DNA of 45,928 nucleotides, from contig JAKAON010000001.1 in NCBI GenBank assembly GCA_021812185.1, positions 1 to 45,928 on the forward strand, in the 5' to 3' direction. Position 1 is the stretch's first letter. Each line of letters begins with the position of its first letter. Below the pieces are notes generated by a model. The model was given only the letters and a program-made list of their open reading frames with translations. It was not told where the DNA came from and did no database searches. A program made the position numbers and the translations under genes. This document shows, in pieces, positions 7,308 to 17,054 of the stretch. Origin of the DNA: Microcaldota archaeon (GTDB taxonomy: Archaea > Micrarchaeota > Micrarchaeia > Micrarchaeales > CABMGC01).

Positions 7308-7323
7308 TTTAAATATATATTTA
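7308..7323 (+). promoter_or_regulatory. Putative TATA box/promoter of the T4SS-like operon
   Basis: TTTAAATATATATTTA about 30-40 bp upstream of the ATG at 7349. Confidence 0.5.
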
Positions 7324-7348
7324 GGTATAAAATCATATACTTAAGTAA

Positions 7349-7729
7349 ATGGATGAGTATATGAGCACACGCCTTATAGACACCGAAAGATGGATAGCCA
7401 GCAGTTTTTATCGAAGCCATGCATTGTTGGGTTTGTTGCCTTTAGGATTCTTCTTAATGAATAGCCTGACTGGCAGCCTCTCTTCAGTGCAACAGATTCT
7501 GATGCAGGTGGGACCTATCCTAAGCGGCGTGCTCTTCATTATTGCAGGCATATTTTATGCCGTGGGGCAGCTTATGACGCCAGAGAAGAAAGCAAGTTTC
7601 CACACGACTTCAATAAATATAATAATAGGCGCAGTAATCGTTGCGATACTCTCAGTTACGTCTAACACATTTGCATTGGCATCAACGCACCTGCTCTCCA
7701 ACTTGACGATGTCAAACGCAACGACGTGA
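7349..7729 (+). CDS. Small membrane protein, VirB2/TrbC/CedA1-like pilin candidate
   Basis: N-terminal signal-like helix (LLGLLPLGFFLMNSL), then VQQILMQVGPILSGVLFIIAGIFYAVGQL, a charged loop (MTPEKKASFHTT) and SINIIIGAVIVAILSVTSNTFALA; the two-helix pilin layout of VirB2. Confidence 0.55.
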   Translation: MDEYMSTRLIDTERWIASSFYRSHALLGLLPLGFFLMNSLTGSLSSVQQILMQVGPILSGVLFIIAGIFYAVGQLMTPEKKASFHTTSINIIIGAVIVAILSVTSNTFALASTHLLSNLTMSNATT

Positions 7730-7733
7730 GCCA

Positions 7734-8780
7734 ATGCAAATAGACCCATTCGGCCTCTACGGATTCCAGATAGGAGTTATCATAATAGCAATAATGATAA
7801 CCATAAGCGGAATGGTCCTTGGAATAGGATATGCCTTGGACGATAGGAAGATAAAGGAGTTCGGGAGATCTGAGATTTATCAATCAGTTATTAGCGGCGT
7901 GCTACTAGGATCTTTCCTCTTGCTCTTTGCAAACGGAGGAGCAGTATCGAGTCTTGTCAATGCAGTTACGCTGAGCAATGGAACATCGTTTTCCTGCCAG
8001 GCAATGATGCAAAACAATGCAGCACTTTGTTTTGCATCGAACTACCTAAATGGGCCAAAGCAATACACATTCATGAACAGAAGTTATGATTCGCTGATGA
8101 CAATATCTACAGGTTTCCTTGCATCTTTGGTTGCATTGAATTCAGTACTAGGCATACTTGCTGGGATAAAGATAAGTTTGGTCATCGTATCGCTCTCGTT
8201 TGCTGGTGTGATGCAGCCGTTTTTGAACGAGATACAGTATGCCATATCCGCACTGATTGCGATAATGGTAGGTATATCTATAGAATCTTCGCTCCTTTCT
8301 TTTGTGGCTCTTACTGCAACTACGCTTGTGCTTCCGATAGGGTTGTTGCTAAGGACTTTTTATCCGACTAGGAAACTCGGTGGTTTTTTCATAGCCCTTT
8401 CTATAGGGATGTATGTCGTCTTCCCGCTATCGTATCTTTTCGATGCTATGATGGTAAGCCAGTATAATGTAGGGAGCAGTCAAGCAAATCTTTCCGAGAT
8501 AACTTTCAGCGCACAGTCAGCGAAGAATCAGTATATAGGGACGGTTGGCACAAACACACTTGAAAGCACTGGAACCTTGAGCGCCATAACTAACAGCGTA
8601 TCGTCACTATCCTCATCGATTTCAAATATGCTTGACCCACTCTTCAATACGATATCAGGACTTATTATCCAGGTTTTCGTATTGCCGATTTTCAATTTGG
8701 TAGTTACAGGGATATCCATCAGAGAATTTGCAGGTGTATTTGGATCCGAAGCGTATTTCGGTAAATTTAGAATTTTGTGA
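7734..8780 (+). CDS. Polytopic membrane protein, VirB6/TrbL/CedA-like
   Basis: Multiple TM helices; LPIGLLLRTFYPTRKLGGFFIALSIGMYVVFPLSYLF, long extracytoplasmic Ser/Thr-rich segments; second gene of the operon. Confidence 0.5.
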   Translation: MQIDPFGLYGFQIGVIIIAIMITISGMVLGIGYALDDRKIKEFGRSEIYQSVISGVLLGSFLLLFANGGAVSSLVNAVTLSNGTSFSCQAMMQNNAALCFASNYLNGPKQYTFMNRSYDSLMTISTGFLASLVALNSVLGILAGIKISLVIVSLSFAGVMQPFLNEIQYAISALIAIMVGISIESSLLSFVALTATTLVLPIGLLLRTFYPTRKLGGFFIALSIGMYVVFPLSYLFDAMMVSQYNVGSSQANLSEITFSAQSAKNQYIGTVGTNTLESTGTLSAITNSVSSLSSSISNMLDPLFNTISGLIIQVFVLPIFNLVVTGISIREFAGVFGSEAYFGKFRIL

Positions 8781-8784
8781 TTAT

Positions 8785-9501
8785 ATGGATGATCCGCGGA
8801 GCAATAACAGGATTTACGCATATATGATATACGCAGTTTCAATAGGGGTGCTTGCGCTTTCGTTACTAAGCTACAATTTGCTTGGAATAATAGTAGTTGC
8901 AACATTGGCATTTCTATCCGTAGCGTACATGAATTCGGGACATATCATCAACTCGGTAGCTATGAAGAGACTGCGTGTCATTGAGATTTGTGGCGGATAC
9001 CATGTTAGCGGAAGCACGCATTCTGCAATCAAGAGAAATGGTTCCATGTATAACAGCGTTTCTGTGGCTGTACTGAAACCTAACTCCAAGATAGAAGGCC
9101 AGAGCAGGATATTTGAGGAATTGTTAGACAAGATCAAGATACCGTTTGAGTTCAGCATATCTGTAAGGAAACTCGACAGGAAAAAAGTGATTGAGTCTTT
9201 GGAGACCAGAAGGAGAATGAAAGAGCTGGAACTTTCACGCTCTGATGGTCCGGATTACAAGAGTGCAAGTATGATAAAAAGGCAAATACGCGCCATAGAA
9301 AACGAGATATCCATAATATCAGAAGGCGACGAGCCTATTGAAGCGCTCGTGAAGCTGAAGAGCTTTGCCTCTGGAGAGACGGAGGCAGAAGCTGCCCGTA
9401 TGTCGTTTAGGCAATTGGAACAGATAGCCAATCTCGTAGCTTCGTCGTTCAAGCTCGATTATGTAATAGCAACTGGGGAGGATATACTTGATTTACTTTA
9501 A
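8785..9501 (+). CDS. VirB3-like two-TM segment followed by a VirB4 N-terminal-like domain
   Basis: MDDPRSNNRIYAYMIYAVSIGVLALSLLSYNLLGIIVVATLAFLSVAYM, then a soluble alpha/beta region (SVAVLKPNSKIEGQSRIFEELLDKIKIPFEFSISVRKLD), just upstream of a VirB4-type ATPase. ATG at 8785 preferred over the listed 8728, which overlaps the previous gene. Confidence 0.45.
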   Translation: MDDPRSNNRIYAYMIYAVSIGVLALSLLSYNLLGIIVVATLAFLSVAYMNSGHIINSVAMKRLRVIEICGGYHVSGSTHSAIKRNGSMYNSVSVAVLKPNSKIEGQSRIFEELLDKIKIPFEFSISVRKLDRKKVIESLETRRRMKELELSRSDGPDYKSASMIKRQIRAIENEISIISEGDEPIEALVKLKSFASGETEAEAARMSFRQLEQIANLVASSFKLDYVIATGEDILDLL

Positions 9502-10621
9502 AAGTGTACGCGATGAGAGATTCATTATTGGGTCTAGAATGCTATCCAAAATGTTCAGCATATACGCAAATGAAGAGCCTTCAGTAGACCAAATCGCAGT
9601 GGCAGCTGAAAACGGAATATATGTTGGGAAATCTGAAAGATTGTCTACGCCCATATTTTTGGATCCGTCGAAAGCGATTAACCCGCATATATTTGCAGTC
9701 GGAATAACGGGGAGCGGAAAGAGCTACCTAATGAAGAGCATGATGCTGAGAATGGCGTTGATTGGAGAACTTGGGATACTTGTGGTGGATTTTACAGGAG
9801 AATATAGAGAACTTGCAACACTTGCTTTTTGTACGAGGGCTAATTACGAAAACGCACATAGCGCAATTGCCCGTTTGCCTGAAGGCATAGTTTACATGGA
9901 TTTGTCCAATGAACCGGAAGGAAGGAAAGTTGAGATTGCAACTGCGGCATTGAATGAGATTGTACTAAAAATGCGCAGATTTGATGCAAACGGGCATAGC
10001 AGGATATTTGTTTTCCTAGATGAGGCATGGAAGATACTTAAGGATAATGATGTTTTAGAGACCATAATTAGGGAGGGCAGAAAATACGGAGTTGGGATTG
10101 TGCTGGCTTCGCAGATGATAAATGACGTTGAAAAGGATTTTCTACAAAACATCGGGACAATTTTTGTATTCAGGCTACAAAACAGTAAGAATTTGGATGA
10201 TTTGGTAAGCGATTACGGAATTTATACTGAGCAGGCCAGGGACGTCCAGAATTTTGAACAGGGCAGATGTATGCTTATTCAACTAAACAAGGCCAAAAAG
10301 AGATCCTGTTTTGTGATAGCTAAAATAGATGGTGTTAGATTGGACAAGACAATAAAAATCGGTTTGGGCGGAGAGTGCTTGGATATAGAGGAAAATGAAT
10401 TTTATAGGGCGATTGGTGGGCTCGACATAGGAAGCGGCAACCTTGCGGACTTGAGGCTTGACGTGGACAGAAAGGGATCGATAGTACTAAGCAAATTGAT
10501 CGCGACGCTTTTGGAGATGGGTGCGGATAGGAGAGAGGTACTGTGTAAACTGCGAGAATTGGGTTTTAGGGATTTTGATATTGCAGATGCGTTTGCAGTA
10601 GTTGTAAGCGGATCGGATTAA
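9488..10621 (+). CDS. VirB4/TraC/CedB-like P-loop ATPase (C-terminal ATPase half)
   Basis: Walker A GITGSGKSYLMKSM, VDFTGEYREL, Walker B RIFVFLDEAWKIL (VirB4-type DEAW), GVGIVLASQMINDVEKDFLQNIGTIFVFR; overlaps the upstream ORF by 14 nt. Confidence 0.8.
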   Translation: MIYFKSVRDERFIIGSRMLSKMFSIYANEEPSVDQIAVAAENGIYVGKSERLSTPIFLDPSKAINPHIFAVGITGSGKSYLMKSMMLRMALIGELGILVVDFTGEYRELATLAFCTRANYENAHSAIARLPEGIVYMDLSNEPEGRKVEIATAALNEIVLKMRRFDANGHSRIFVFLDEAWKILKDNDVLETIIREGRKYGVGIVLASQMINDVEKDFLQNIGTIFVFRLQNSKNLDDLVSDYGIYTEQARDVQNFEQGRCMLIQLNKAKKRSCFVIAKIDGVRLDKTIKIGLGGECLDIEENEFYRAIGGLDIGSGNLADLRLDVDRKGSIVLSKLIATLLEMGADRREVLCKLRELGFRDFDIADAFAVVVSGSD

Positions 10622-11310
10622 TGGGGCATACCATGAAAAAGACATGCGAGCAGACAATTTTGATGAGAATGCCGATATTGGCAAGGCTCAAAACAAGCTT
10701 GAGAGAGGTGGACAGGACTTTGACAAGTTACCCTCATTTCAAGGCAATCCGGCGTGGCACAATATTGAAGTACGCATTGAAATTAGGATCAACGGTGAAC
10801 TCCGTTTATGGAATTGAGCTTTCCAAAGAGGGCATAATTTTCGATATCCGTTCTAATGAGAGCCCATTGTATGACATGAGAAGCGCCTTGAATATTTCAA
10901 TGGGCGTATGCGCAATACTCAAAAACCACTATGAAGTGCGTCTTGATAGTATGTATCCGTACATAGCATACGAAATGAACAAAGCGGCCATTGAGAGGCA
11001 CAGTTCGATTACAACAAAGGACATGAAACGCAATTATTCTGATATAATACTTGCGAAGAGAATAAACGAGTTGCGCAGGAGGAATGCAGAGCTTGAACTG
11101 GAAATTTCAAACACTTATGACACATTGGTAGATATCACATCCGGGATTTTGATATCTGAAGGACTTAACAGAACAGCAGCTTTTTCAGATGCATTTTTGA
11201 AGTATGGCATAGACAACAAGTATTTGGACGCAGCAATATCAAGAGTTGGAAGCAGAGGATACAAATTGACACTTATTGAAAAAGACAGATTTTCGGTGGT
11301 GAGCATTTGA
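10621..11310 (+). CDS. Uncharacterised soluble operon protein
   Basis: 229-aa ORF, starts where the VirB4-like ORF ends, overlaps the next ORF by 4 nt. No recognised motif. Confidence 0.6.
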   Translation: MGHTMKKTCEQTILMRMPILARLKTSLREVDRTLTSYPHFKAIRRGTILKYALKLGSTVNSVYGIELSKEGIIFDIRSNESPLYDMRSALNISMGVCAILKNHYEVRLDSMYPYIAYEMNKAAIERHSSITTKDMKRNYSDIILAKRINELRRRNAELELEISNTYDTLVDITSGILISEGLNRTAAFSDAFLKYGIDNKYLDAAISRVGSRGYKLTLIEKDRFSVVSI

Positions 11311-11918
11311 ACGAAGTTGGACTAATTGAGATAGAATCATTAGCGCCAGTAGCTTTGGGCGCATTATTTATGTATGGATTGGTGAAGTTGAACCTGAGAA
11401 AGAATACGGTAAAAATTTATATAGATGATAAGCGTCAGCCAAACGAATGTGGTGAACCTAAACATGCGCTCATTGAACATGATTCCGTTGGGGTTGAGAA
11501 CATTAAATTGACAGGTACAGATAGGTTAGATGATTTGGCTACAATTTACTGGCATGTTGGAGATTTAAATGATTCATCGTACTGGAGCAATTATGTCTGC
11601 AGGGGATTAGATTTCAGATCTTGCGTGATTGGCGATACGGTATATGATGAATTTATAGTAAATGGTAAGTTCGTGGTAGCTGATGCGAAGAATAGTATAG
11701 TAGACAAAGGGGCAAAAGAGTTGGGAATTTTTGATTTGTCAAATATTTCCAGCAGATACAGATTATTAGGAGGTTCTTTTAGCCAAAATAAAAACGCCAC
11801 TATAGCACTCTTCGAAAGTTCAGATATGATCTGTGAGATTAGCAAGTATTCTGAAAATTCTGGTTTGATGCTCATGCTTCTTCAAGACCCTAACGTAAAT
11901 ATAATGGTGATGAAATGA
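11307..11918 (+). CDS. Uncharacterised protein with one N-terminal TM (GIDE/E3-like topology uncertain)
   Basis: 203 aa; APVALGALFMYGLVKLNL helix then a soluble domain; ATGA-type overlaps with both neighbours. Confidence 0.55.
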   Translation: MNEVGLIEIESLAPVALGALFMYGLVKLNLRKNTVKIYIDDKRQPNECGEPKHALIEHDSVGVENIKLTGTDRLDDLATIYWHVGDLNDSSYWSNYVCRGLDFRSCVIGDTVYDEFIVNGKFVVADAKNSIVDKGAKELGIFDLSNISSRYRLLGGSFSQNKNATIALFESSDMICEISKYSENSGLMLMLLQDPNVNIMVMK

Positions 11919-12127
11919 ACGCAAGTATGGATTTGGATATGATAAATTTCATAAAGGCAAGTGCATTTATCAGCTGTGTTGCAATTTCAATCTTTGTTGC
12001 ACAGTTATTGTTTAATGGAAAGGGAGATTCAAAGGCTGCAGAAAAACTGAGAGGCTTTGTAAATGGCATGTTGATTTTGACATTCATTTCGTTATCAATA
12101 TATTTGTGGTTTTATGCTAAGGCTTAA
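11915..12127 (+). CDS. Small two-TM membrane protein of the operon
   Basis: FIKASAFISCVAISIFVAQLLFN and GMLILTFISLSIYLWFYA; 4-nt overlap upstream and 14-nt overlap downstream. Confidence 0.55.
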   Translation: MNASMDLDMINFIKASAFISCVAISIFVAQLLFNGKGDSKAAEKLRGFVNGMLILTFISLSIYLWFYAKA

Positions 12128-12398
12128 CGAGATATATAGACATAATGATGGAAGGAACTACAAAATGGCACTTACGGGATTGTGCTTATTTGTGGGGATG
12201 GTGACTTTATGGGCATTGTCATTCTTTCGAGTTGAAGCATATTTAGTTTTTGGGATTTTTGCTGGAGTATTTACCATTATAGGATACCTCCATATTGTTA
12301 GGGAACAGCGAAAAAATTATTTCATTGTTGATTTTAGGCGTATTAGTTTTCTTCTCATTTTGGGGATAATAATTATTACCATAGGGGTTCTGGTGTAG
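12114..12398 (+). CDS. Small multi-TM membrane protein of the operon
   Basis: Three hydrophobic segments, about 94 aa, embedded in the overlapping ORF chain. Confidence 0.55.
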   Translation: MLRLNEIYRHNDGRNYKMALTGLCLFVGMVTLWALSFFRVEAYLVFGIFAGVFTIIGYLHIVREQRKNYFIVDFRRISFLLILGIIIITIGVLV

Positions 12399-12401
12399 GC
12401 G

Positions 12402-14630
12402 ATGGACGGCATAAAACTAGTATCTGTATCCCAAGTGCCGCTTGAGATGGATAGGTCAGTATTTATAACGGCTTTGTCGCAGGAAAAATTTTTAATATGG
12501 CATGATGTTGGAAGGGCCAAGACGCTTGTCGCAGCCAGTCAAAAATCCCTTACACAGATAAATAATGCGTTGCCTGGTCTCGAATTTGTAGATTTCGATG
12601 AAAAAGTGGGATTTAGCAGACCTGTAGGAATTGTCGCCTTCTTGTATAACGAACCAGTGTCTTTTGAGGAGAGAGAGAATTTCAGGGTATTTGGAGATTT
12701 ATACAAAATATTACGGGAATCGCAAGACGGAATCTGCATATGTTTCAACCCAATAGGAATAAGTACGATCAGCGCGCTCAAAACAAGGATTGAACACTTG
12801 CTGAGCACAAAAGAGACGCGCCAAACAAGGAGCCATGGAGATAGATCGCTGTCCTATTCTTTGACTAGTGCAGTTCAGATGGAAAATTATTATGATTCTG
12901 AAGAAAAGAAAGTACTTGTCTCGGTTCTTGATACGCTGGACGATATAGTTATATCCAACGGTTTTTGCTACAAAGTGTTAATTGTTTGCGATGACAACGA
13001 GAGAGTTTTGAACTATTTGAAATCAAAATTATTGATTATCGAGAAAATTAGGATGCATGATGGGGATTTTGAGAGCATTTACAATGCATCTGAAAAAATA
13101 GATGCGTTGCCATATAGCATGAAAAAAATCCTCCACATGCTATCATTTTCAGAAAACATACAAAAAGGCCCGAACGTGAAAACAGGCATTTCCATTTCTG
13201 CGCCTGGCAATATAATTATTGGGAAGGTCCTGGAGGAATCGGTAAAAAATACAGATATGCAGGTTAGGATTATGAACACTGCGTTAAATTTAGGGTGTCT
13301 TATAACAGGATTGCCAGGCAGCGGAAAGACTATGGAGGCTATGAGTATTTGCAAGCAGGTTAAACTTTGTGGCGCAGGCAATACACGCATAATTGCGATA
13401 ACCCCAACCAATGAATGGTTTGGTGTAGCAGCGGAGAACCATTTTGAATATGTGCAGCCTTATGGATCGAATGTTGCAATAAATTTCTTTGAATGTGCAT
13501 CCAAAATAAATATAGAAAAATTTTATGAGAATTTGGCAGTTCTTATAGCTTCTTCATCAAATGCAGGACCATATAAAAATTCGTTAGAAAAATGCTTACT
13601 TGCTGCGTTCAGAAAAGTATATTCTATCACAAGAACCCCAGACCCTTTGGATGTGTATGATGCTATTGAGAGATCCATAATAGAGTATCATGGGAAGGAA
13701 ACGAATGTAGGAGTGAAGTACACAAAACATGGCGAAAATATACGAGCTGCACTTGAAGGCCTTAGGCTTCTTCTATTCAGGGAAGAGTTTTCTTCGACAA
13801 AGGGCGAGAGTTTTAGGAGATTTCTCGATAGTGGAGTGATTTTTGACCTCTCATGCGTGAGCAATAGCATGAAGCCGCTCTTTTACGGATTGATATTAAA
13901 CCAGGTTTACAGCTTCAGCGACGAACTAGATACATTTGGTGACAATGAGCTGAGGATGCTTATCCTAATAGAGGAAGCCCAGCTCATATTTTCACAAGAT
14001 GAAATATCAGGAGCAACATTGGACCTTAAACAACGTATACAAGATTTTAGGAAAAAAGGGGTAGGGCTCATGCTTGTAACGCACAATGTTACTGACATCA
14101 ATCCGAGCATACGGAGATTGTGCCAAAACAAGATGTATTTCAGACAGAGCAACGATATAGCAAAATATGCTTTTTCGGATTTGGGATTTTCGGAGATTTA
14201 CATGGAGCAGGTAATCAACAGGCTAAAGAACACTGAACAGAGGACTTGTGCAGTTAGCTTGGTTGAAAAGACAATTAAAGGAACGCGTGTAATGGACCCT
14301 GCATTCATAATTACAAATGACTTCAGTTATGTGGATGGGATGGATGTGACAAAAATGGTGATGCCCAAAAAACAAGCATATGCGTCAAATATGAAAATAC
14401 ATGTTGTTGATTCTGAGGATATGCCTATTCAAGATCTTAAAGTTTCACTAGATTATGTTTGGGAAAGAATCTGCGATTTGGCCACAGACGAGAATGGATT
14501 AGTAAGCATTGATAATATAATTTTTGGAAGGAGATACAAAGTTAGAATATGCGAGACCGGTAAAAAGAAGGCACTGTTGGTTAAAGAAGTAATTTCTGCA
14601 CCTCTCCTCACCCTAAGAATTGAAAGGTAG
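12402..14630 (+). CDS. HerA/VirB4-superfamily (DUF87-like) ATPase with C-terminal beta-sandwich-like extension
   Basis: Walker A GLPGSGKTMEAM, Walker B RMLILIEEAQLIF, GVGLMLVTHNVTDI; C-terminal ~79 aa IHVVDSEDMPIQDLKVSL...ATDENGLVSIDNIIFGRRYKVRI. Confidence 0.75.
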   Translation: MDGIKLVSVSQVPLEMDRSVFITALSQEKFLIWHDVGRAKTLVAASQKSLTQINNALPGLEFVDFDEKVGFSRPVGIVAFLYNEPVSFEERENFRVFGDLYKILRESQDGICICFNPIGISTISALKTRIEHLLSTKETRQTRSHGDRSLSYSLTSAVQMENYYDSEEKKVLVSVLDTLDDIVISNGFCYKVLIVCDDNERVLNYLKSKLLIIEKIRMHDGDFESIYNASEKIDALPYSMKKILHMLSFSENIQKGPNVKTGISISAPGNIIIGKVLEESVKNTDMQVRIMNTALNLGCLITGLPGSGKTMEAMSICKQVKLCGAGNTRIIAITPTNEWFGVAAENHFEYVQPYGSNVAINFFECASKINIEKFYENLAVLIASSSNAGPYKNSLEKCLLAAFRKVYSITRTPDPLDVYDAIERSIIEYHGKETNVGVKYTKHGENIRAALEGLRLLLFREEFSSTKGESFRRFLDSGVIFDLSCVSNSMKPLFYGLILNQVYSFSDELDTFGDNELRMLILIEEAQLIFSQDEISGATLDLKQRIQDFRKKGVGLMLVTHNVTDINPSIRRLCQNKMYFRQSNDIAKYAFSDLGFSEIYMEQVINRLKNTEQRTCAVSLVEKTIKGTRVMDPAFIITNDFSYVDGMDVTKMVMPKKQAYASNMKIHVVDSEDMPIQDLKVSLDYVWERICDLATDENGLVSIDNIIFGRRYKVRICETGKKKALLVKEVISAPLLTLRIER

Positions 14631-14716: not shown

Positions 14717-14747
14717 TTCAAACTATATGATATCTACTGCGATTCCT

Positions 14748-17054
14748 ATGATAAACTCAATTGAGATGAGGAACTGGAAGACCCATGAGGATACAAAAAT
14801 CGAGTTCTCAAAAGGCACGAATATAATTGTCGGAGAGATGGGGGCCGGAAAAAGCTCCACAATAGACGCGATATGCTATGGGTTGTTCGGTACATTTCCT
14901 TTAGTTAAGCAAAAAAGGGTGAAACTCTCTGAGATAATAAAGAATAGGCCAAAACAGGAGAGAGAGGCTGCAGTAAAGGTCACCTTCACCGCAGAAGGCG
15001 ATATTTACAGCGTAGAAAGGGAGGTTTTTCTTAATGGCAGCACAAAGGCGAAACTGACTAAGAACAATGAATATCTCCAATCACAGCCAGAGAGAGTAAA
15101 TGAGGAGGTTGAAAGGATACTGAAAGTGGACTATGATCTTTTTGCAAGAGCAGTATATTCGGAACAGAATAGGCTTGACTATTTTTTGGAGCTTAAAGCA
15201 AAAGATAGAAAAGATCAGATGGATGCACTTTTAGGGCTTGACAAATTTGCACTTGCAAGTGACAATGCAGGGTCTTTGATAAACAAAGTAAAGGATATGA
15301 TTAGCAATCAGAAAAAGGACGCTATCCAACTTGACGTTGATGGGATTAAGAACCAGCTGCAAGGATTGGCGCTTGAATGCGAGAAGTTGGAGGTTGAAAG
15401 GAGTAAGCTGGTTGCAGAGTTGGTTTTGGTCGACGGATCAGTGAAAACATTGGAATCGCGCATAAAAGAGATGCGAAATCAGGAAGCAAAAAAAGGCATA
15501 TTATCAAAAGAGATTGCCGAGCTGAGGAGCAAAACAGAATATGCAACATTGGAGATACGGAAGATAGAAGAAAAGAATTTGGGCAAACGAGAAGATATAG
15601 GGACTGCAATAAAAAATGCTGAAATGAAGCTAAAGGAGCTAAAGGATCGTGAAAAAGGATCATCGGATTTTGAAAAGACGCTCCAAATGAGATTCTCCAA
15701 AGCAGGTTCTGAAGTGCAACAGCTTGAAAAAAGGATTTTGGAGAGGGATGCGATACTCAAGAGGATTGGAGGAAGAGACTTGGACAAGTTGAAGGGCGAA
15801 TATGATTTGCTTGCAAAAGACCTTCAGCGTATTGAAACAGAATTCCTCACCAACGCTTCCGAAATGAAGAATACTGAAAAATGGCTTAATGAACTAAGAG
15901 TGCATGTTGGAAAATGCCCAGTTTGTGAACGAGATATTGCAGGCGATCTTCATGAAAGGCTTATAGAAGAGCGGCAGAAAAACGCAAGCGAGCTTTCTAA
16001 AAAAATGAAAGAGATTGAAAACGCGCTTGCTAAAAAGCGGGAGAAGGCGAAATCTGCACTCGAGGAGATAAACGAGCTTGTAGTACTGTCTTCCAGAATT
16101 AAGGATTACGAGAACATAGATAAGTTGAAAGCAAGCAGCATTGCCGAAAAGGAAAATGCCAAAGCCGCCTTAGATGCGTCCAGATTGGAGCTGGATGCCA
16201 TAAGGCATGAGACAGAGAAAGTTAGTGTCGAAGCAGCGAATTTGAACAGGGCAAACGAGGAATTGGCAAGAAAAGAGGGATACCTAAAGGATATACTTGC
16301 TTTTGATGCAAGTAGGAAAGATAGAGAAGCAGAATTTGACCTGATAAAAGTTGATGCTAAGGAGATAGAGATTCTGCAGGCCGATTTTGTTGATATGCGA
16401 TCAAAATCTAGTAGCATTAATGCACAAATTGAAGCTCACGCAAAATATATCCATGACAAGAAGGTGCAGATGGAGGACAAGAGAGTGCAAATAGATGCGA
16501 TAGAGAGGATGAATAAGGATATAAAACAAAAGGAGTTCGTTATGCACAATCTCTTGAAGTTCAGGGGGGCTCTTGACGAGACAAAACTCATCCTTAGGAA
16601 CAGGCTTGTAAAGAGCATAAACGACGTGATGCAGGAGATGTGGCCAGATATGTATCCTTACGGGGATTACAAGAGCATAATGCTTGATGCTGCAACAGAC
16701 GATTATGTACTTAATGTCCTTGTTAATAGAGAAGGTAAGGACGTCTGGCAGGAGGTTGATGGGATAGCAAGCGGAGGGGAGAGGAGCACGGCGTGCCTTG
16801 CGCTTAGGGTGGCATTTAGCATGGTGCTTGTACCAAACTTGAAGTGGATAATACTAGACGAACCTACGCATAACATAGATGAGGACGGGATAAAGAGATT
16901 TGTTGAATTATTCAATGACAAACTCCCGAAAATAGTCGACCAGATATTTATAATAACTCATGATGAATTGCTCAAGCAGTCTGTGAATTCAAATATATAC
17001 GTACTTGCAAGGGACAAAGGCAATGGCGGATCAACAGTAGTAGAACGTGCATGA
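14748..17054 (+). CDS. rad50: DNA repair ATPase Rad50 (SMC-like with zinc hook)
   Basis: MINSIEMRNWKTHEDTKIEF, Walker A VGEMGAGKSSTIDAI, coiled coil, zinc hook CPVC (15915-15926), ABC signature ASGGERSTACLALR, Walker B WIILDEPTHNID. Confidence 0.9.
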   Translation: MINSIEMRNWKTHEDTKIEFSKGTNIIVGEMGAGKSSTIDAICYGLFGTFPLVKQKRVKLSEIIKNRPKQEREAAVKVTFTAEGDIYSVEREVFLNGSTKAKLTKNNEYLQSQPERVNEEVERILKVDYDLFARAVYSEQNRLDYFLELKAKDRKDQMDALLGLDKFALASDNAGSLINKVKDMISNQKKDAIQLDVDGIKNQLQGLALECEKLEVERSKLVAELVLVDGSVKTLESRIKEMRNQEAKKGILSKEIAELRSKTEYATLEIRKIEEKNLGKREDIGTAIKNAEMKLKELKDREKGSSDFEKTLQMRFSKAGSEVQQLEKRILERDAILKRIGGRDLDKLKGEYDLLAKDLQRIETEFLTNASEMKNTEKWLNELRVHVGKCPVCERDIAGDLHERLIEERQKNASELSKKMKEIENALAKKREKAKSALEEINELVVLSSRIKDYENIDKLKASSIAEKENAKAALDASRLELDAIRHETEKVSVEAANLNRANEELARKEGYLKDILAFDASRKDREAEFDLIKVDAKEIEILQADFVDMRSKSSSINAQIEAHAKYIHDKKVQMEDKRVQIDAIERMNKDIKQKEFVMHNLLKFRGALDETKLILRNRLVKSINDVMQEMWPDMYPYGDYKSIMLDAATDDYVLNVLVNREGKDVWQEVDGIASGGERSTACLALRVAFSMVLVPNLKWIILDEPTHNIDEDGIKRFVELFNDKLPKIVDQIFIITHDELLKQSVNSNIYVLARDKGNGGSTVVERA

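Follow-up and report, generated by a model that had tools for sequence, protein, structure and literature searches.

How do reduced, host-dependent DPANN archaea repair their genomes and acquire new genes? This question lies behind a nine-gene operon on a stretch of 45,928 nucleotides from a Microcaldota archaeon (the window: positions 1 to 45,928 of contig JAKAON010000001.1, assembly GCA_021812185.1). The archaeon's genome, of 921 kb and 88.5% complete, carries the operon on its contig C5 (G000:C5). An initial annotation, made from the letters alone, had read the operon as a candidate minimal type IV secretion system (T4SS) resembling the Ced and Ted DNA-import systems. Our analysis leads us to read it, with a probability of roughly 0.6, as a chromosomally fixed, T4SS-derived DNA-transfer apparatus that is Ced/Ted-like in its working. 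The operon consists of nine same-strand open reading frames (ORFs) at 7349-14630, with short gaps or overlaps at each junction; this tight, co-directional packing is as first described, and the TATA-like promoter proposed ahead of it corresponds to a recognizable box. Its features, in window coordinates, are as follows.

7308..7321, + strand: TATA-like box of the operon (sequence; a TATA-like element is similarly placed in most relatives)
7318..7327, + strand: imperfect upstream copy of the putative operator, TATTTAGGTA, 8/10 (sequence; 20 bp from the main copy)
7338..7347, + strand: putative palindromic operator TACTTAAGTA, 10 bp (sequence; promoter counts in relatives)
7349..7729, + strand: gene 1, VirB2/TedC-type pilin with a signal-peptide-like N-terminus (Pfam profile matches)
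7734..8780, + strand: gene 2, polytopic membrane protein (its own family alignment A2; hydropathy)
8785..9501, + strand: gene 3, predicted VirB3-like membrane hairpin plus VirB4 N-terminal domain (AlphaFold2; PDB fold search)
9488..10621, + strand: gene 4, VirB4/HerA-type motor domain, the VirB4 C-terminal half (Pfam; profile matches)
10621..11310, + strand: gene 5, soluble protein with a coiled coil and a possible C-terminal helix-turn-helix (alignment A5; hhalign)
11307..11918, + strand: gene 6, N-terminally anchored, fast-evolving protein (28 of 37 loci; alignment A6)
11915..12127, + strand: gene 7, 70-residue protein with two transmembrane segments (positional counterparts in most loci)
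12114..12398, + strand: gene 8, 94-residue protein with three transmembrane segments (positional counterparts in most loci)
12402..14630, + strand: gene 9, second HerA/VirB4-type motor (profile matches; 21 loci)

The true start of gene 1 is probably the ATG at 7361 rather than 7349, because the palindrome-to-start spacing is then about -23, as in most relatives; gene 3 starts at the ATG at 8785.

At first inspection, gene 3 encodes a membrane hairpin with a soluble part, which is how it had been described. The description stands, and closer inspection refines it. A fold search of the PDB with its AlphaFold2 model (predicted local distance difference test [pLDDT] score 86) returned, at ranks 1-12, exclusively R388 T4SS entries for VirB4 (TrwK) or the inner-membrane complex, with a best E of 1.6e-3 at probability 1.00 and probabilities of 0.90-1.00 over the first twelve. 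The E-values are modest; nevertheless, the consistency of the matches and the position of the gene just before the motor make a strong case for reading gene 3 as a VirB3-like membrane hairpin followed by the N-terminal domain of VirB4. Gene 4 supplies that motor, with matches to AAA_10 (3.5e-15) and DUF87 (8.3e-13) in Pfam and to the VirB4 profile 4ag5 (5.9e-11), and it holds the FLDEAW Walker B motif noted earlier; its best NCBIfam match is CedB, far below the cut-off. With the N-terminal domain in gene 3 and the matching motor in gene 4, the operon therefore encodes a VirB4-type motor, N-terminal domain included, divided into two proteins.

The window copy of gene 1 matches the Pfam T4SS_pilin family at 5.5e-5, 3 bits below the cut-off. 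Among its relatives, T4SS_pilin is matched by 19 of 35 (best 4.8e-7) and TrbC/VirB2 by 14 of 35, and an A-x-A-like motif, under a permissive pattern, precedes the first conserved helix in 30 of 36. By these family matches the small two-helix protein, previously called pilin-like, is a T4SS/VirB2-type pilin. Gene 2 follows directly, in the position of VirB6, CedA and TedA, and encodes a protein with 7 hydrophobic segments and two invariant Cys residues. Its known relatives are limited to these loci and to a homologous polytopic protein of a second locus described below. It has no match in Pfam, NCBIfam or the PDB, and a fold search with its model (pLDDT 78) gave no significant match, R388 VirB6 ranking 35th with an E of 1.3. 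The VirB6-type protein that had been proposed is thus retained as a conserved polytopic protein in the right position, without significant similarity to VirB6 by sequence or fold. Homology of the gene 1 pilin to the gene 2 N-terminus, as reported for CedA and CedA1, was also considered and rejected (hhalign, 0.3%).

The second HerA/DUF87-like ATPase that had been recognized at the end of the operon is indeed a HerA/VirB4-type motor. Gene 9 matches the HerA profile 8wiv at 3.9e-6, a weaker match of this type than that of gene 4; the CedD model is matched by 13 of the 21 family members (best 6.1e-10). Its N-terminal domain is large, and the protein is extended at the C-terminus by a segment whose sequence suggests a beta-sandwich. 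Elsewhere in the genome, a 546-residue HerA-type ATPase with a C-terminal extension (G000:C28:5047-6687; L232) adjoins an endonuclease-IV-like gene, and similar ATPases are present in relatives.

The same genome has a larger, paralogous T4SS-like locus on contigs C34 and C25 (G000:C34, L249; G000:C25, L248:1-14366), which appear to join, because the end of one protein continues on the other contig. It encodes two T4SS-type pilins, six polytopic proteins, two gene 3-like (VirB4-N-like) proteins, a 507-residue motor and, following the motor, a gene 5-like protein. Profile comparison with the operon families gave 1.7e-10 and 4.2e-7 for gene 3, 1e-39 for gene 4, 6.4e-15 for gene 2 and, by hhalign, 2.4e-6 for gene 5; the pilin link is weak. 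We rejected the 507-residue ATPase as a canonical HerA, since its neighbors mark it as the motor of this second locus. The locus is intact in all four relatives checked, including G037 and G038, where no window-type operon was detected.

Most genomes in the family of the window, and several in a second family, have an orthologue of gene 4. We compared 37 loci from 36 genomes of the two families; several contigs end early. The conserved order is pilin, polytopic protein, gene 3, gene 4, gene 5, gene 6, two small membrane proteins and gene 9. Genes 1-4 are collinear in essentially all 37 loci, while gene 5 is kept in 31, gene 6 in 28 and the terminal gene 9 in 21. The sequences of genes 7 and 8 diverge too much to build a profile from, but small membrane ORFs occupy the same gap of about 450 bp in most loci. 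Moreover, at least 60 Micrarchaeota loci, further named ones among them, show this order with differing neighbors, and the core of genes 1-4 extends to the complete ARM-1 genome and other divergent members. Relatives bearing names are almost all listed as Candidatus Micrarchaeota, which is very probably the phylum of the window too. Such recurrence is far beyond chance, and the conserved synteny of the ATPases with these membrane proteins, on which the first reading depended, is borne out. Strong gene 2 matches (E<1e-40) were found in about 60 of 79 first-family and 51 of 85 second-family genomes, many of them incomplete. No published description of the operon in Micrarchaeota was found in the literature searched, which excludes subscription papers and preprints. 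One genome carries two very similar operon copies on separate contigs (G022:C2 and G022:C3; L059, L060), reflecting duplication or strain mixture. In 14 loci the operon has in its vicinity proteins with a QSAMEYLMTYGWAI type IV prepilin-like N-terminus; in L041, L042, L054, L055, L057 and others they are encoded some 5 kb upstream.

Most promoters of these operons share the palindrome TACTTAAGTA. A score of at least 9/10 is reached by 27 of 36 window-type operon promoters, versus 0.45 expected in random stretches; the enrichment factor is an upper estimate, because the random stretches were not limited to AT-rich intergenic DNA, and the count is descriptive, because the motif was spotted by eye in the same promoters before counting. 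In an overlapping set of GTDB loci, 46 of 62 promoters reach the same score. Five exact variants occur in 25 copies in 587 kb of loci, and on inspection all 25 lie at the operon promoter: 24 are no more than 80 bp from the pilin start as called, and the remaining one (L036) is there too, its distance being an artifact of an overlong pilin ORF call. G002, G018 and ARM-1 have tandem copies, exact or nearly so, at a 20-bp spacing. Genome-wide the palindrome is not over-represented: its 61 copies in 60 genomes are outnumbered by those of the reversed control.

A separate whole-genome search supplied sites at a second kind of promoter. In nine genomes, including the window's, the palindrome lies between a small helix-turn-helix-like gene (108-123 residues) and a divergent type IV pilus operon, the ATPase side being unconfirmed in one of them (G034). 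The archaeon's genome thus carries TACTTAAGTA at both promoters, G000:C5:7338 for the operon and G000:C8:18193-18202 (L292:6194) for the pilus. The pilus-side ATPase is a FlaI/CpaF/GspE family secretion ATPase (E 1.4e-37), followed in several genomes, the window's included, by paired membrane proteins and small prepilin-like ORFs; this ATPase apart, gene names around the shared palindrome are readings of sequence. In four or five genomes the palindrome is also found close to FtsZ paralogues and DNA ligase; in ARM-1 its neighbors are the putative regulator gene and a gene resembling a ligase. Apparently, then, TACTTAAGTA is a candidate operator common to the operon and a type IV pilus operon, and may define a regulon. 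The sites near FtsZ paralogues are in L258, L272, L273, L274 and L300, some with a DNA-ligase-like gene. Two further exact palindromes occur in the archaeon's genome, at G000:C39:1208-1217 (L293), upstream of a gene that reads as a 130-residue TRAM-domain-like protein, and at G000:C53:144-153 (L294).

Could the operon instead be the transfer module of an integrated conjugative element? A tRNA-Leu adjoins it in the window; as an integration site this was rejected, as no single tRNA type lies beside the operon in relatives. In a tree of genes 2-4 (a quick tree, with 14 weak inner branches), the two families split with full support and six of six same-genus genome pairs are joined, and operon distances correlate with EF-2 distances at r 0.37-0.58. 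This agreement with the division into two families and with each of the six genus pairs tested indicates that inheritance was mainly vertical. The flanks vary and, in subsets of loci, include recurrent ordinary chromosomal genes, read for example as L10e-like and DPH2-like. Among plasmids, no match extended over most of gene 4 and gene 2 had none at all, and viral contigs gave only remote matches, so that no matching locus was found for a plasmid or virus origin. The statement that no relaxase is visible holds for PF03432, which had no match in the 88.5%-complete genome, other relaxase families not having been searched; ComEC had no match either, and a purM-like match fell below its cut-off. 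With a mainly vertical tree, varied chromosomal flanks and no matching plasmid locus, the operon lacks the mobile location of a conjugative element, an origin that we disfavor as highly improbable.

A T4SS-derived machine of this kind might instead carry proteins or metabolites from archaeon to host or back, as has been proposed for Patescibacteria, whose epibiotic growth requires a chromosomal T4SS without a relaxase. Mostly relaxase-free chromosomal T4SSs are widespread in host-dependent, small-genome bacteria (PMC12102498), and a VirB4/TraG-type ATPase has been proposed for effector secretion in nanohaloarchaea (PMC10266531). In characterized archaeal systems, however, such motors serve DNA transfer, and no recognizable effector gene is conserved in the operon. 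Moreover, the putative operator ties the operon to pilus, ligase and FtsZ genes, which exchange and repair fit better; among current arguments for DNA exchange over effector secretion, the strongest is that a type IV pilus operon has this same putative operator, and we consider effector or metabolite transfer unlikely. The gene 1 pilin and the common putative operator would also suit an operon that builds only an attachment pilus, its motors driving assembly without substrate transport. Yet two motors and a large conserved polytopic protein exceed the apparent need of such a structure and the genome already has a separate type IV pilus operon, making this proposal quite improbable.

If the operon is a DNA-transfer apparatus, gene 1 would form a VirB2-type pilus and gene 2 a membrane channel. 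Gene 3 would anchor and complete the gene 4 motor, the pair representing VirB3-VirB4 in two proteins, and gene 9 would act as a second motor for substrate engagement, as CedD does beside CedB. Joint control of contact pilus and transfer machine would fall to a dedicated regulator that binds TACTTAAGTA as activator or repressor; the small helix-turn-helix-like protein whose gene diverges from the pilus operon is the probable candidate. This would resemble Sulfolobus, where DNA damage co-induces the Ups pilus and Ced (PMC11868833). The cell would take up DNA from kin or host, to recombine or salvage it; this DNA would most likely be single-stranded and arise without the action of a relaxase. We infer DNA acquisition as the role of the operon, and the operator common to the pilus operon strengthens this view. 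More tentatively, at somewhat less than even odds, we envisage a Micrarchaeota-wide DNA-exchange "competence" regulon, in which one palindromic operator and one small regulator govern the split-VirB4 machine, the type IV pilus genes and, for some genera, those of DNA ligase and FtsZ as well, DNA moves between the archaeon and its kin or host, and the larger paralogous machine operates alongside.

Several observations weigh against a Ced/Ted-like DNA-transfer apparatus. No operon protein reaches the curated Ced cut-offs: the CedB equivalog model (NF041017) gave 75.5 bits versus a cut-off of 700, and under the CedD equivalog model (NF053655; cut-off 600 bits) gene 4 scores 36.5 bits and the gene 9 family likewise falls short. 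The Ced models also match HerA-type paralogues in the same genomes, which is why we rejected CedB similarity as proof of Ced membership. Nothing significant supports a VirB6 likeness of gene 2 by Pfam, PDB profile, fold or family search, the proposed helix-turn-helix-like regulator has no PDB match and no identified family, and the operon is absent from some near-complete second-family genomes. A Rad50-like gene lies on the same strand 96 bp 3' of the operon (14727-17054), as in some Ted loci; its adjacency is not conserved in relatives, and we do not count it as part of the system.

If the DNA-transfer reading is true, a domesticated transfer machine exists outside the archaea with Ced and Ted, and its distribution is broader than has been described. 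Expression of the transfer machine and the pilus operon would then be expected to change together on DNA damage or contact with the host. The shared operator offers a direct handle and makes DNA exchange in Micrarchaeota a concrete, testable idea.

Among known systems, the VirB3-VirB4 inner-membrane complex of R388 resembles the operon in that the gene 3 fold matches its TrwK/VirB4 entries. However, the gene 3 protein has a gene of its own, separate from that of the motor, and includes the membrane hairpin, and none of the nine genes was identified as VirB8, VirB9, VirB10 or VirB11. The Patescibacteria T4SSs are likewise widespread, chromosomal and mostly relaxase-free in reduced, host-dependent cells (PMC12102498), but they belong to the bacterial MPF-FATA class, show no VirB3-VirB4 fusion in the dataset of that study and are without the archaeal operator or a paralogous second locus. 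Ced of the Sulfolobales (CedA, CedA1, CedB, CedD, CedE) is also relaxase-free and chromosomal, with a VirB2-type pilin, a polytopic channel (a role that gene 2 would fill here), two HerA/VirB4-type motors and a VirB4 N-terminal domain spread over two proteins (PMC11868833). The operon differs in making that domain a separate protein with its own membrane hairpin, in its extra genes 5-8 and in its operator palindrome, which is not described for Ced in the literature cited. Of the initial proposal, then, a minimal T4SS-derived, relaxase-free system of Ced/Ted-like parts stands, whereas membership of the Ced/Ted families, whose cut-offs are missed by far, is not supported. Ted of the Thermoproteales (TedA, TedB, TedC) differs in that TedB is one VirB4-like protein, where the operon counterpart is split, and no ParA/MinD gene was identified among the nine; yet its loci, too, contain HerA-like genes and place the polytopic gene directly after the pilin gene (PMC9905601), and TedC shares with most operon pilins the A-x-A-like signal-peptidase motif.

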